Shown: positions 1,907 to 44,120 of the stretch, in pieces
Layout of the letters: each line of letters opens with the position of its first letter
Numbering within the stretch: position 1 is the stretch's first letter
Assembly (NCBI GenBank): GCA_002973635.1
Contig: CP027224.1
Span: forward strand, 3,730,501-3,794,500
Length of the DNA: 64,000 bases
Direction of reading: 5' to 3'
DNA from: Lysinibacillus sp. B2A1
Lineage (GTDB): Bacteria; Bacillota; Bacilli; Bacillales_A; Planococcaceae
Notes under the pieces: generated by a model
Database searches by the model: none
Seen by the model: only the letters and a program-made list of their open reading frames with translations
Told to the model about the DNA's origin: nothing
Program-made: the position numbers and the translations under genes

Positions 1907-2271
1907 AACATATCACCTGAATTCTTAAACTCATGAATATTACTAACGACTTTTAGTTGATGCGATAACAAAGGGTAACTTTTATTCGGGTCACTTAAAT
2001 TTAAAGGCAACACACCATAACCACCATTATTATGACAATAAACTATTACGCCACGTACTTTAAATCTCTTACCCAAAACATTCATCACAGTTCCTTCTAC
2101 AATATCCTTTTCAAAAATCAGTTCACCATCGATAGATATTGCAATAGCTCTCATTTCTTTACTGGAACAACTAGGTAACTTTACTTGTTCCTTTATTAAA
2201 TCATCAAAAGTGAATACAACCATTTGATCGCCTGTCCACACTCGATAAGTTTTAATTATTTGTGATTCCAT
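1723..2271 (-). CDS. YopX-like phage protein with anomalous C-terminal overlap
   Basis: 182 residues as read. Residues 1-115 resemble the phage YopX family (a 'YRVWTGDQM' opening, 'EKDIVEGTVM', then 'GVLPLN' and 'KVVSNIHE' near the end), whose function is unknown. The last 60 or so residues are simply another frame of the head gene, a 184-base overlap that is far larger than any other in this operon. A one-base slip near 1915-1930 would give a stop at about the expected end of a YopX protein, so the annotated tail is probably not real. A second, better YopX protein is encoded at 13906-14286. Confidence 0.6.
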   Translation of the reverse strand: MESQIIKTYRVWTGDQMVVFTFDDLIKEQVKLPSCSSKEMRAIAISIDGELIFEKDIVEGTVMNVLGKRFKVRGVIVYCHNNGGYGVLPLNLSDPNKSYPLLSHQLKVVSNIHEFKNSGDMLWQTNKETTGVNDSKCLSNHSMRRMRVIIRISRKRISRLCKKSKRILLNGINALLRTMKSH

Positions 2272-2312
2272 TTCATCACCTCACTTATTACAGAATAAAA
2301 GAAAGACCTCGT

Positions 2313-3806
2313 TTATTCAGCGATTTCATTGTTTTGCTTTTGTTGGAAAGTGGTGTCGTAATTATCAAACTCATTCATACGTTCCTGACGTTCTTTCTTG
2401 TTTCGTTGCATCTCTAATGGCGGATCTTTTACATAAGGGTGCTGCGCTACCTTCGTTTCTTCAGACAAGTAAGGTGATTTATTTAATACTTCAACAACTT
2501 CCATCTCGTTAATTAAGATGTCACGATTAAAAATGATATTTACATATTCATCTTCATAATCCCCTTGTCCTGTGTTTGCTAAATGAACATTGATAAACCA
2601 TAACAATTCCTCAAATGATGCTTGGAACTCTGTTTCAATACCATCTGCATCAAGATCAATCTCACTGTACATGGCCCTAATATTTAATTGATTTGGGTTA
2701 TTAGCCATACGTTCGTCTTTCGCATCATAGCCTCGTCCATTCTCAATCAAAGCCTTTTTAAACAGTGATAGAATTATCTTATAATTCTCAGGGTTAACTT
2801 CAACAGTTAATGTTTCTACACCGCCTTGGTTTTCCTTATTGCGGACCACTTTAACAACACCGTATTGTGCCAAGTTTCGCCTAAATTCCCCTAAATTCTG
2901 CCCTCCATAGTTATACAGAACAAGAAGTGTATTCCGTGCATCTTCTTGCATGTTGTTTTCAAAGTCGCTTAACATGATATTGATGCCGTCTTGTAGCGAC
3001 TTCACACGCTTAATAAGTGGTATTTCCTTGTTATTGAATTTAAACGGTATCAAAGGAGTTCGTTGCCAGTTCATACTTAATTTATTTCCGCCATCATTAA
3101 TAGTGATATAAGATGTCAGTACCTTCGTTACATCTTGTACAAGACGTCCTGAGAACCACTCATAATGTTCCACACCATTGGCGCTATAAACCTCTACCTT
3201 TTCAACTACAACCTCTCTATCACCTTCGTATGTCTTTACAGGATATACGCGAATTGCGAAATCAAGGATAGTCTGTTCTGAATCCTTCCAAAATGGAATA
3301 ATTTCATGTGGCTGGAACCTTTTAATAACAAACTCACTATTTTCATCGTAATACGGATATAACCAGCCAATACCGCCATTCAAGGCGTCCTGACCAACAC
3401 TTCTTATTGTTCTATGGAATCGTTTATTGAAAATCTCTTGTAATTTCTTTGAATACTCTTCATTTTCAGTTTCAATTGTTATTGGCTTACCAAGTTGATA
3501 GTTTACTTTTTGGTCAACAAGCTTGGCATACTGATTATCTAGTATCTTGTTATTTGGTAAGTTTTTATTAACCTCCAAACGCCCACCTTCTCCAATAACT
3601 AAACGCTCTCGCTTTAATATCTCTTGCTCGCCTTCGTAGTAATTTTCGCCCGTAAGCATCCACTTTCGCTTCTCTGACTTTTTAAACTTATTAATCTCGT
3701 TCTCGAGCCATTTGATGTCTGTTATTAAATCATTTGCACCAGTTGTTATATTTTCATTGATGACATCTGTGTCTGTAATGGCACCCTGGTATGGAAAATA
3801 ACTCAT
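2313..3806 (-). CDS. Phage portal protein (SPP1 gp6-like)
   Basis: 497 residues, the usual length of the SPP1-type portal family. The portal ring sits at one capsid vertex, docks the terminase and forms the DNA channel. Visible family features are the N-terminal 'QYAKLVDQKVNYQLGKPI' segment, an acidic central region, and 'NDGGNKLSMNWQRTPLIPF' followed by a helical stem with 'NNMQEDARNTLLVLYNYGG'. It lies directly between the large terminase subunit and the gp7-like head gene, the standard order. Confidence 0.93.
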   Translation of the reverse strand: MSYFPYQGAITDTDVINENITTGANDLITDIKWLENEINKFKKSEKRKWMLTGENYYEGEQEILKRERLVIGEGGRLEVNKNLPNNKILDNQYAKLVDQKVNYQLGKPITIETENEEYSKKLQEIFNKRFHRTIRSVGQDALNGGIGWLYPYYDENSEFVIKRFQPHEIIPFWKDSEQTILDFAIRVYPVKTYEGDREVVVEKVEVYSANGVEHYEWFSGRLVQDVTKVLTSYITINDGGNKLSMNWQRTPLIPFKFNNKEIPLIKRVKSLQDGINIMLSDFENNMQEDARNTLLVLYNYGGQNLGEFRRNLAQYGVVKVVRNKENQGGVETLTVEVNPENYKIILSLFKKALIENGRGYDAKDERMANNPNQLNIRAMYSEIDLDADGIETEFQASFEELLWFINVHLANTGQGDYEDEYVNIIFNRDILINEMEVVEVLNKSPYLSEETKVAQHPYVKDPPLEMQRNKKERQERMNEFDNYDTTFQQKQNNEIAE

Positions 3807-7471: not shown

Positions 7472-7575
7472 CCTATTCTTTTAATCACACTACTCAAATC
7501 ACACCTCTCCAATTACTTACGCATTTATCTAAAATCTGTTAGATTATTCTCAAATACATGTAAGAGGTGATTTAA

Positions 7576-7836
7576 TTGCTAACTGAAAAGAAAAAGTGTC
7601 GTGACGAACTTCTAATTGCCTTCAAAAACTTAATTTCTTCCAAAGGAAAGAATGAATTCTCTATTCAAGAAATAAAAGACTACATGCTTCGTAATGGTGC
7701 CAGTTCTTCCGAAAAGACTATTGAAATTCATATTCGATATCGATGTTGTGCTAATGCTGAAAAACGATACCATACCAAAAATTATGATGATTTAATAATG
7801 CTAGAGAACGGATTGTACACTTTAAATACTAAATAA
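7576..7836 (+). CDS. Small rightward phage protein, DUF7669-like
   Basis: 86 residues from a TTG with AAGAGGTGA seven bases upstream. It runs against the flow of the phage operon. The 'NEFSIQEIKDYMLRNGASSSEKTIEIHIRYRCC' segment looks like a winged-helix fold that ends in a C-rich turn, similar to short helical proteins linked with restriction-type loci. Family assignment is tentative and the role unknown. Confidence 0.6.
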   Translation: MLTEKKKCRDELLIAFKNLISSKGKNEFSIQEIKDYMLRNGASSSEKTIEIHIRYRCCANAEKRYHTKNYDDLIMLENGLYTLNTK

Positions 7837-41587: not shown

Positions 41588-42721
41588 ATGGATAAGATTA
41601 CACGAATAAATCATTTGAACAATGGTTTTCACCGATTTCAACAGAATAAATGCAGGAATACATGGAAAGCCACCAATTAAACTACTATACAAAGAAGCTG
41701 TACATGGCTTCCTTTCTAAAATTACTCTTATATGCACAGTTGAACGAAACCGAAAGTATGTGCGCTGTGCGTGACGCGCAATTTTTAGAAGAACTCCAGC
41801 AGCTCACCCATTTAGATTCGATTAGCAACTCGCAATTAGGACGCCGATTGAATCAGGTACCAACCGAATTCTTTCAACAGGTTTTTCACGATTTGATGGC
41901 GCAAATTCATATGAAAACTGAATTTGAGCAACACCGGAAAATATCGACGCCCTTAAAGATCATTGATTCCAGTGTGCTGTCACTGAATTTGAACAATCAT
42001 AAGTGGGCCAAGTTCCGCAAAACCAAATCTGCATTTACTCCTCGTCTACATAGAAAAAGACTGTTCATATCCTAACTAGGCAGTGCTTACGAATGCAATA
42101 GAACATGATCTCGGACAGCTTGAAGTGTTGGTTGACGATAAGGAATCTATGTACGTATTTGACCGAGGCAACTTTGATTATGATCGTATTGATCGGATGA
42201 CCGATGACGGCTATTTCTTTGTCTCGTGCTTGCGTAAAAATGCGGTAACACGCGTCATGGAAACACTCGAATTACCCGAGGATTCACTGGTTTTATCGGA
42301 TGAAATAGTTGTCATTGGTATGACACAGAATCGCGCTGAAATCGTCTTTCGCTTATTAAAAGTAATCGATTCAAAAGGTAATGAGCTACAACTCCTTACG
42401 AATCGGTTCGACTTAGATGCAGAAGAACTCGCTGAATTGTACAAGTCACGTTGGGCGATCGAATTATTCTTCAAATGGATGAAACAACATTTGAACATTA
42501 AGAAATTCTACGGTCACAGTGAACAGGCAGTGCATAACCAAGTATATATCGCGATGATTGTATATTGCTCAAACGTGTTGGCACAGCTCCGCACAAATAG
42601 TTCGCATACATATTTAGAAATTGGTCGTTTCTTGAAGGTATCGTGGAGGAATTCTGCTAAAGGTTATAGTGAAAAAATGGATGTTCACTACCACTGCTTA
42701 CGTGTCTTTGTTTTCTTCTAA
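41588..42721 (+). pseudogene. Decayed IS4-type transposase
   Basis: Reads 'MDKITRI', shifts frame to 'NKSFEQWFSPISTE', stop, 'MQEYMESHQLNYYTKKLYMASFLKLLLYAQLNETES', 'LQQLTHLDSISNSQLGRRLNQVPTEFFQQVF', 'IDSSVLSLNLNNHKWAKFRKTKS' (first D), another shift and stop near 42040-42078, then 'VFDRGNFDYDRIDRMTDDGYFFVSCLRKNA' (second D) and 'LYKSRWAIELFFKWMKQHLNIKKFYG' (E with the YREK-like region). At least two shifts and two stops; inactive. Inverted repeats not found. Confidence 0.85.
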
Positions 42722-43376: not shown

Positions 43377-43634
43377 TTACCCATCCCCTTTTTGTTTTTC
43401 TATTTATACAAACGAAACAAAATGGAGATTGTTCCCAATGTGTATTTTACTAGTCATTTTCTCTCATTTCTTTATATAAAATTTCTCGAAATGGGCGCGT
43501 TCTCTCATGGAACTTTTTATTTTTTCAAGATATTCACGATACAGATCTTGTATTTCCTGCGGTGCTTCAGTATTGAGTGTTCATTTCAGTTCCCTTTTTA
43601 CTGGAAAATATGTATACTTAAAATATAGTAAGTT

Positions 43635-43830
43635 GCCTCTGTAGCTATAGAAGGGAAGAGCGCCGGAAAACATTGTAGATACCGGGTCGCAAGGCAAGGG
43701 TTTCAGAAGCACCGAAAAGCAAATGAGCTGAGGCAGGTGAAATTCCTAGCCGGTGAAAGTCCGTAGGGAAGCGTGTTCCCCCTAGCCTATGCTTACGAAA
43801 GGAGTACGGGTTCGAATCCCGTCAGAGGCA
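43635..43830 (+). ncRNA. tRNA-like RNA with anticodon arm replaced by a structured insert
   Basis: 5' GCCTCTG (43635-43641) pairs perfectly with CAGAGGC (43823-43829); positions 8-9 are TA; a D-arm GCT ... AGC (43644-43661) carries a GGG-containing loop; a canonical T-arm ACGGG-TTCGAAT-CCCGT (43806-43822) abuts the acceptor stem with no gap; A43830 is the discriminator, no CCA is encoded. Between D-arm and T-arm, where a tRNA has about 43 bases, there are 144 with their own hairpins: CCGG/CCGG (43663-43685), GGCAGG/CCTAGCC (43732-43750 region), TAGGGAA/TTCCCCCTA (43764-43785 region). A weak promoter (TATACT at 43613) precedes it. No group I intron or tmRNA features seen. Confidence 0.75.
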
Positions 43831-44120
43831 TATGCAAACTGATGTCTTCATACTATTAAATCCTCCAAATGTAATTCTGAATAAAACCTTCTGTTTAACT
43901 CCTATTCTATAGAGAATTATTATTTATTTAAAAATAAATAAGACCAGGCTCAATAAAATCGAGTACCTGGCCCTTCTTGCTTTGTTGTAGAAATAGGAAT
44001 TGAAAAGACATTTTTAGCATATCATAGCAGCCTGAACAATTTCTGAACACTATGAATTTATTGTTAAGATACATGTTTGTCTCATCCATTACCCATCTTC
44101 CTATAAAAATAAACGGTTGC

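Follow-up and report, generated by a model that had tools for sequence, protein, structure and literature searches.

Our results argue that positions 43635-43830 on the forward strand of the window, the 64,000-nt stretch of the Lysinibacillus sp. B2A1 genome analysed here, hold a predicted gene for a 196-nt structured RNA in which the body of a tRNA carries a large additional folded domain. Homologs across many genera and in phages, with helices that covary among them, indicate that the locus is more than a chance resemblance. The anatomy of the RNA, read by comparing sequences, is well supported and much surer than its function, which is deduced from that anatomy. The minimum free energy of the 196-nt RNA is no better than that of shuffled sequences (z -0.99), and for this reason the case for an RNA is built on comparison; the folding energies of the inner domain, computed for the window copy and two phage members, lie at z 0.65 to 1.09 against shuffles. 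No second copy was found in the genome of the window (5.51 Mb, single contig).

A preliminary description of the window had placed the RNA at these coordinates and given it this length, and both the sequence and the homologs agree with it. The gene runs from G1 to discriminator A73, with no CCA encoded. Its acceptor 5' strand, GCCTCTG (43635-43641), forms seven of seven pairs with 43823-43829 and is followed by TA at positions 8-9; at the other end the T-arm, ACGGG-TTCGAAT-CCCGT (43806-43822), has a perfect stem and abuts the acceptor 3' strand CAGAGGC with its discriminator A (43823-43830), the acceptor helix being one that the family shares. All of this can be seen in the sequence as it had been described. 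The D-arm (43644-43661), whose loop contains GG, is likewise present, but in the window copy it has three standard pairs and one A.G mismatch. The distance from D-arm to T-arm had been correctly counted as 144 nt (43662-43805). However, these nucleotides do not stand in place of an anticodon arm, as had been thought: a hairpin whose stem covaries in the family, CCGG-AAAACATTGTAGATA-CCGG (43663-43685), lies at the anticodon position, and we therefore assign the extra RNA to a giant variable region. The loop of this hairpin includes the segment AAAACA (43667-43672), of which AACA is able to pair with TGTT at 43774-43777 in a predicted pseudoknot.

The variable-region domain is enclosed by a helix with the 5' strand GGCAAG (43693-43698, recognised by eye in Bacillales copies) and the 3' strand CTAGCC (43782-43787, read in the sequence); its final base and the partner of that base covary in Bacillales, by eye, as G/C, C/G, A/T and T/A. 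Sequence comparison places core motif 1, GGTTTCAGAAGCACC, at 43699-43713, with GGTTGCGGATGCACC as its phage form. Core motif 2, GTAGGGAAGCGTGTT (43763-43777), is the longest near-invariant stretch of the family, and its constancy among viral loci is partly due to selection, as it was also the handle in the viral searches. Between the two motifs comparison of copies reveals hairpins of a Bacillales type (43718-43763), where phages have other hairpins. Two GGTGAAA-N-TCC hairpins belong to this region (43735-43747 and 43751-43763). Their words had been pointed out in the preliminary description and are found at 43736-43746 and 43752-43762, but they are a Bacillales detail, and of 58 distinct full-length copies six (L008, L028, L036, L039, L040 and L047) have lost or never had one of them. 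A last hairpin, CTTAC-GAAA-GGAG (43792-43804), lies 5' of the T-arm and shows a C-G to G-C change in L022, L073 and L074. Upstream of the RNA are two -10-like hexamers, TATACT (43613-43618) and TATAGT (43624-43629), and two weak sigma-70-like sites fall at 43613-43629 (+); a scan of 43400-44050 gave four such sites against 2.3 in shuffles. Scans of the flanks revealed neither a strong promoter nor a terminator for the window copy.

Conservation in relatives, which the preliminary description had regarded as critical to its proposal, is found on plasmids, in Bacillales and in phages. Whole close copies on plasmid records and Bacillales stretches are 84-99% identical. A DNA search recovered the RNA from 18 of 72,556 plasmid records (16 whole and 2 partial; Listeria 8, Cytobacillus 5, Peribacillus 2, Bacillus 2, Priestia 1), and 13 of 151 searched genomes, the window's own counted, contain it (12 whole copies, the thirteenth being the diverged L022). 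An exact pattern retrieved 48 stretches of named Bacillales records, 46 of them with whole copies; L071 is partial and L059 is cut at the edge of the extracted stretch. These three sets overlap, and at least six of the searched genomes are probably duplicates of Bacillales records. Comparison of 15 close Bacillales pairs gave identities of 97.8-100% for the RNA and 65-93% for the flanks, where random sequence reaches about 71% with the aligner used and the high flank identities come from the downstream side in the B. pumilus group. Acceptor pairs change jointly among Bacillales copies (GCCTCTG/CAGAGGC, GCCTCCG/CGGAGGC and GCCTCAG/CTGAGGC).

A TATAAT-like hexamer (at least 5/6 matches) lies near the start of the RNA in 48 of 53 distinct Bacillales upstream sequences, compared with 23.5 in shuffles, and exact TATAAT is present in 35 of the 53, compared with 2.8. 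Terminator-like hairpins follow in 7 of 57 downstream sequences (shuffles: mean 0.9, maximum 4). No protein neighbour is conserved, the largest shared protein cluster occurring in 6 of 66 Bacillales loci, and a tRNA gene was found in 1 of 51 Bacillales loci examined and in none of 5 more. Because the RNA outlasts its flanks, has -10 sites, lacks a shared neighbour and has few tRNA genes around it, the Bacillales RNA looks like an independent, mobile and conserved RNA gene. Partial 3' copies, comprising approximately the last 50-97 nt, also occur (L052:2306-2377, L038:2645-2716 (-), L071:5722-5819 (-) and L010:6001-6050); in L052 and L038 a whole copy is found roughly 2 kb from the partial one, and the downstream flank is shared. 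One bacterial genome (G010) has two copies of the RNA.

Phage records gave no BLAST match to the window RNA, divergent forms being the sole route to the phage relatives. The divergent form that seeded pattern scans of viral contigs was L022, a diverged copy in a Bacilli genome that encodes CCA and adjoins tRNA-Trp, -Ile and -Glu. By eye, this copy sits within an apparent integrated element (L259, G091:C1:2239000-2258500) with a site-specific recombinase beside a comM-like gene, primase- and helicase-like ORFs and three tRNA genes. At least 49 IMG/VR loci carry a relative of the RNA, mostly a divergent one; the Bacillales type is represented among them by L074 and by L072, which holds the Listeria plasmid copy next to a prophage. 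As the viral loci were retrieved with core words as handles, their agreement in these words is partly by selection. A script delimited the RNA in 46 loci, 45 on IMG/VR contigs and one in Streptomyces phage Satis, with failures on L022, L166, L204 and L236 that were corrected or dropped afterwards, and the covariance model found three IMG/VR loci that the script had missed (L230, L232 and L233).

BLAST with the phage forms identified a relative in 25 named Streptomyces phages; named phages with the RNA include Satis, Quantum, Kradal, Comrade, Gilson, SparkleGoddess, Alone3, LuckySocke and pSt2308. Their records annotate no feature over the RNA, except for a "hypothetical protein" in Moab and LuckySocke that is probably a spurious gene call. 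tRNA genes are present in 18 of 20 viral loci and in 1 of 3 more, with up to 29 in a single locus. The RNA occupies the gap between tRNA-Arg and tRNA-Asp in Satis, lies between tRNA-Asp and tRNA-Glu in Alone3 and comes after tRNA-Leu in Gilson; in Comrade about 1.2 kb separate it from the closest annotated tRNA. Two copies occur on one viral contig, L166, at 7551-7790 (-) and about 2160-2400 (-). Five loci (L222, L223, L224, L225 and L231) form a subgroup that has the core but reads CA at positions 8-9 and carries a CAACGAAA-type loop in the anticodon place.

The phage consensus consists of a 7-bp acceptor, UA, a D-arm, a 4-5-bp anticodon-place stem with the loop AAAACGGA, the variable region and a T-arm. 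In the variable region a 6-bp closing helix surrounds core word 1 (GGUUGCGGAUGCACCG) and core word 2 (GUAGGGAAGCGCGUUUCC), and the hairpins between the two words vary freely. In an alignment of 14 phage sequences (A4), 96.3% of cells are paired, pseudoknot included. The acceptor and T-stem are paired in all cells, the closing helix in 98.8% with five of six pairs changed on both sides, and the anticodon-place stem in 88.6% with changes on both sides in five of five. The covariation score of A4 was reached by none of 500 shuffles and its count of further pair types by 8 of 500; pairing drops to 30-48% in slid controls, a comparison that favours the tested structure, which was drawn on a single member (L087). 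When the Bacillales are included (A2), 90.1% of cells are paired: the acceptor helix in 99.4%, with five of seven pairs changed on both sides, the T-stem in 100%, with four of five, and the closing helix in 71.4%, this helix being misaligned between the phage and Bacillales groups. One family alignment left out L003, L019, L085, L222, L223 and L231.

The tertiary contacts of a tRNA elbow are also apparent. With L003, L072, L085 and L236 set aside, the 15:48 (Levitt) pair is present in 37 of 40 phage-type sequences, a set that includes L022 and the Bacillales-like L074 (A-U in 23, G-C in 14, three exceptions), and the D-loop GG in 95 of 95 distinct members. Permuting position 48 gave a mean of 20.2 pairs and a maximum of 31 in 10,000 permutations. 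Together, the covarying helices, the 15:48 pair and the D-loop GG lead us to conclude that an L-shaped tRNA body is very probably kept. Among 93 distinct members the discriminator is A in 70, T in 20 and G in 3, and CCA is encoded in six, as it also is in L022 and L085, which lie outside the 93; acceptor sequence and discriminator reveal no single-synthetase identity common to these members.

The phage and Bacillales RNAs belong, on these comparisons, to one family, a link made firm by the shared core words. R2, a covariance model built from the 14 phage sequences of A4 only, finds the window copy at 70.6 bits (E 7.5e-18), and core words 1 and 2 align between the phage model and the window in the match line. 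The element was found by R2 in 33 of 35 searched sources, the two that it missed (L009 and L010) being truncated copies, and the best ordinary tRNA in that search scored 43.7 bits. The margin of R2 over ordinary tRNAs is real, not vast. Diverged viral members fall within the tRNA range (L223 41.2, L222 36.4 and L085 33.1 bits, with tRNAs up to 41.9) and L137 was not found by R2; such diverged members are assigned to the family by their core words. A second model, R1, was built with the window sequence included and scores it at 147.5 bits. In an R1 survey of 398 genomes of the phylum, 169 had a match, and ordinary tRNAs reached 58.6 bits. Ten survey loci that were read are non-members (nine pairs of neighbouring tRNAs and one single tRNA, L245); clear members among the matches listed are G000, G032, G103 and G124, with short matches assigned to tRNAs by length and about ten further listed genomes with long matches standing outside this count. 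Below about 60 bits neither R1 nor R2 separates the family from tRNAs.

Could the RNA belong to a class already described? The preliminary description had suggested an unrecognised class of tRNA-mimicking RNA and had recommended Rfam and ARAGORN scans. Rfam 15 has no family at 43635-43830 at gathering score and ARAGORN called no gene in the 64-kb window; together with the homologs and the covariation, the absence of an Rfam family favours the suggestion. The Rfam tRNA model (gathering score 29 bits) gives the window copy 17.5 bits, over the 3' part of the RNA, and the phage members L087 and L203 38.9 and 19.4 bits; one of these three passes, L087, and it does so with its insert in place, under lax filters and with two phage members scanned. 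The arms of a tRNA (acceptor, D, anticodon-place and T) and the tertiary elbow were all found. Matches to FMN (13.8 bits) and group II D1-D4 (11.9 bits against 49) at low Rfam thresholds are far below gathering and attributable to chance, and no ribozyme, intron or riboswitch matched at gathering score in the window and the scanned phage loci. The earlier judgement that a normal tRNA, an intron-bearing tRNA and tmRNA do not fit accords with the A33 loop described below and the lack of an intron or tmRNA match.

tmRNA has tRNA-like ends and a large pseudoknotted insert, and our RNA resembles it in its tRNA-like ends and large insert but differs in retaining a D-stem and the anticodon-position hairpin. 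There was no ARAGORN tmRNA call where that program was run and no Rfam tmRNA match, and single-base indels inside the domain between close copies (by eye) speak against a reading frame and thus against read-through of a peptide tag. GOLLD and ROOL are likewise large structured bacterial RNAs (PMC12286853). They are found near phage tRNA genes, but they are much larger and are not known to have a tRNA body, and neither has an Rfam match at the window. YrlA (Rfam RF02553), according to passages of one article, is a non-coding RNA in which a second domain accompanies a tRNA-like one built of D, T and acceptor-like arms (PMC8394870). The fusion of a tRNA-like domain to a second domain is a point of likeness, but in YrlA it is the Ro-binding stem that the RNA's own two ends make, whereas the ends here form a true acceptor stem; two phage loci scored 13.7 and 19.6 bits with the YrlA model (gathering score 69), over stretches that only partly overlap the element. 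A search for Ro60 (Rsr, PF05731) that was positive in 1 of 14 control genomes found none in the genome of the window.

Other tRNA mimics differ as well. tRNA-Other of Bacillus cereus is presented, in parts of its report, as a tRNA-like non-translating RNA at a genomic island with a Trp anticodon (PMC3399842). The window RNA has no decoding loop and lacks the Trp-anticodon loop, and we treat the two as different RNAs, set apart by description. The yjdF riboswitch is, according to sections of a further paper, a bacterial RNA with a tRNA-like fold that binds ribosomes when folded (PMC9142559); unlike the RNA described here, it lies within an mRNA leader and lacks free ends, and Rfam gave no yjdF match at the window. 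Since each tested tRNA-mimic family fails, with tRNA-Other set apart by description, we consider the family, from its sequences, a new RNA class, tRNA mimicry as an idea being old. A literature search confined mainly to open-access papers found no report of the family, and passages of Listeria plasmid transcriptome papers name other RNAs (PMC9484302, PMC6985202). An RNA class with a tRNA body would thus have been overlooked among the tRNA genes of named phages and on Gram-positive plasmids because tRNA finders reject the insert and Rfam has no family for it.

The anticodon loop, AAAACGGA in most phages, is unlike that of a decoding tRNA. Decoding tRNAs have U at position 33. Base 33, counted from the D-stem and with L003, L072 and L236 set aside, is A in all 41 phage-type and all 55 Bacillales-type sequences; a 7-nt decoding loop with U33 and a free anticodon was sought, and U33 was found in 0 of the 96 members. 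The loop's AAC and the base after it are complementary to GUU and the base preceding it in core word 2. By script, and with L003 and L072 set aside, all four loop-core pairs are possible in 102 of 110 scored members, 65 of which are near-identical Bacillales copies, so that the counts are not independent. The pairs take the form AACG/CGUU in phages, AACA/UGUU in Bacillales and AGCG/CGUU in L144. Among the eight members in which the script found no outermost pair, L237 is a misread loop; the real mismatches are G.G in L022, L073 and L075 and G.A in L215, L222, L225 and L231.

As the AAC/GUU core hardly varies, support for the pseudoknot comes from two matching changes: the phage G-C pair is A-U in Bacillales, and in the second RNA of L166 the loop AAAAGCG gains a G where the core CGCUUUU gains a C (by eye). 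L085 retains the pairing through AAAUG/CGUUU (by eye). We infer from these comparisons that the loop pairs with the core in the folded RNA. Only 24 of the 41 phage-type sequences have AAC at loop positions 34-36, most others being shifted by one or two (by eye); where they do, GUU reads as its codon. An arrangement of the kind predicted here is known from pseudoknot I of the dicistrovirus IGR IRES, described in PMC3517527 as an anticodon-loop-like hairpin that is paired in cis to a codon-like stretch and docks in the ribosome. The anticodon-position loop of our RNA may likewise pair in cis with a codon-like stretch, but the IRES is part of a eukaryotic virus mRNA whereas our RNA is a separate, bacterial and tRNA-like one, and we claim no homology.

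What might such an RNA do? We lean, tentatively and at somewhat less than an even chance, toward a model in which it undergoes tRNA-like maturation and, its anticodon loop being engaged in cis, docks on the machinery of translation, decoding no mRNA. In Bacillales it would be transcribed from its own promoter and in phages together with neighbouring tRNA genes; it would then be trimmed as a tRNA is, with CCA added by tRNA enzymes where not encoded. Pairing of the loop's AAC plus G or A with the core's C or U plus GUU would occupy the anticodon loop, and an RNA whose loop is taken up in this way could not read mRNA. The pre-paired loop would resemble a codon-anticodon helix supplied in cis. From there the RNA may act on a universal host target, be it the ribosome, an elongation factor or a tRNA-handling factor, by occupying or resetting ribosomes or by binding EF-Tu or tRNA enzymes. 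That the target would be universal is suggested by a core kept across unrelated phages and hosts and by the absence of a conserved protein neighbour in Bacillales, and the tRNA body points to the translation machinery, which makes the ribosome or an elongation or tRNA-handling factor the most likely target. The occurrence of relatives among phage tRNA genes and on plasmids implies that mobile elements likely use the RNA to act on the machinery of protein making. The family thus offers a handle on the old question of what roles phage tRNA arrays have beyond codon supply, and if cis pairing of the anticodon loop is borne out, the RNA would be a bacterial equivalent of the codon-anticodon mimicry seen in viruses.

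There is a real, if smaller, possibility that the matured RNA is a decoy that soaks up tRNA-handling or tRNA-cleaving proteins, such as host defence nucleases, and spares the phage tRNAs, with the additional domain as bait or armour. Its position among or near phage tRNA genes is what a decoy would have, and its acceptor, elbow and T-arm keep the features recognised by tRNA enzymes. However, a loop that has no natural anticodon and is probably paired makes anticodon nucleases unlikely targets, the strict core would go unexplained, and the Bacillales copies lie outside tRNA arrays. We consider it unlikely that the RNA is instead a ligand-binding or catalytic core on a tRNA scaffold that provides stability and end maturation only. 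The near-invariant segments and predicted pseudoknot do resemble the centre of an aptamer or ribozyme, joined by hairpins that are free to vary, but no ribozyme, intron or riboswitch family reached its gathering score in the Rfam scans of the window and phage loci, and no conserved gene adjoins the Bacillales copies as a candidate for regulation in cis. Quite unlikely, in our estimation, is a self-decoding tRNA borne by phages and plasmids, in which the variable arm would fold back and its GUU, preceded by C or U, would serve as the RNA's own codon for the AAC of the anticodon loop; needing no mRNA to enter the ribosome, it could switch translation, rescue it or block it on behalf of the mobile element.

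The suggestion that integrases might target the gene holds in at least one case. On the Listeria plasmid pCFSAN008100 a prophage with annotated holin, peptidase and tyrosine integrase starts within the final nucleotides of the acceptor strand of the RNA. A 10-bp core from the T-stem/acceptor region is common to both of its junctions (by eye), and the displaced flank matches a sister plasmid over at least 193 bases, up to the end of the compared stretch. These junctions and the displaced flank indicate that integration can use the 3' end of the RNA gene as its attachment site, a role familiar from tRNA genes. It is very improbable that the locus is an attachment site or relic of mobile elements and nothing else, with no function for the product: this prophage and the partial 3' copies in some Bacillales loci would fit, but the compensatory changes, the 15:48 pair and the conserved -10 sites need selection on the product. 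Least probable of all is a tRNA gene whose intron-like insert is removed by splicing, leaving an ordinary tRNA, for although other interrupted tRNA-like genes occur in the same phage loci, removing the domain would leave a non-decoding loop such as AAAACGGA with A33 in every member counted, the domain itself covaries and can pair with that loop, and no group I or II intron matched at gathering score.

Those other insert-bearing tRNA-like genes lack the family core and are located at L230:11710-11859, L230:10721-10848, L144:1836-1962 (-), L205:405-546, L190:3616-3771 and L230:13962-14127. One core-less example is, by eye, an Asn-like tRNA with its insert 5' of the anticodon arm, and the group could possibly represent small tRNA introns or further interrupted tRNAs. 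Elsewhere in the window, 36351-36439 matches the BsrC RNA (RF01410) at 57.1 bits against 38, and two adjoining ORFs at 41650-42721 resemble, by eye, fragments of a broken IS transposase.
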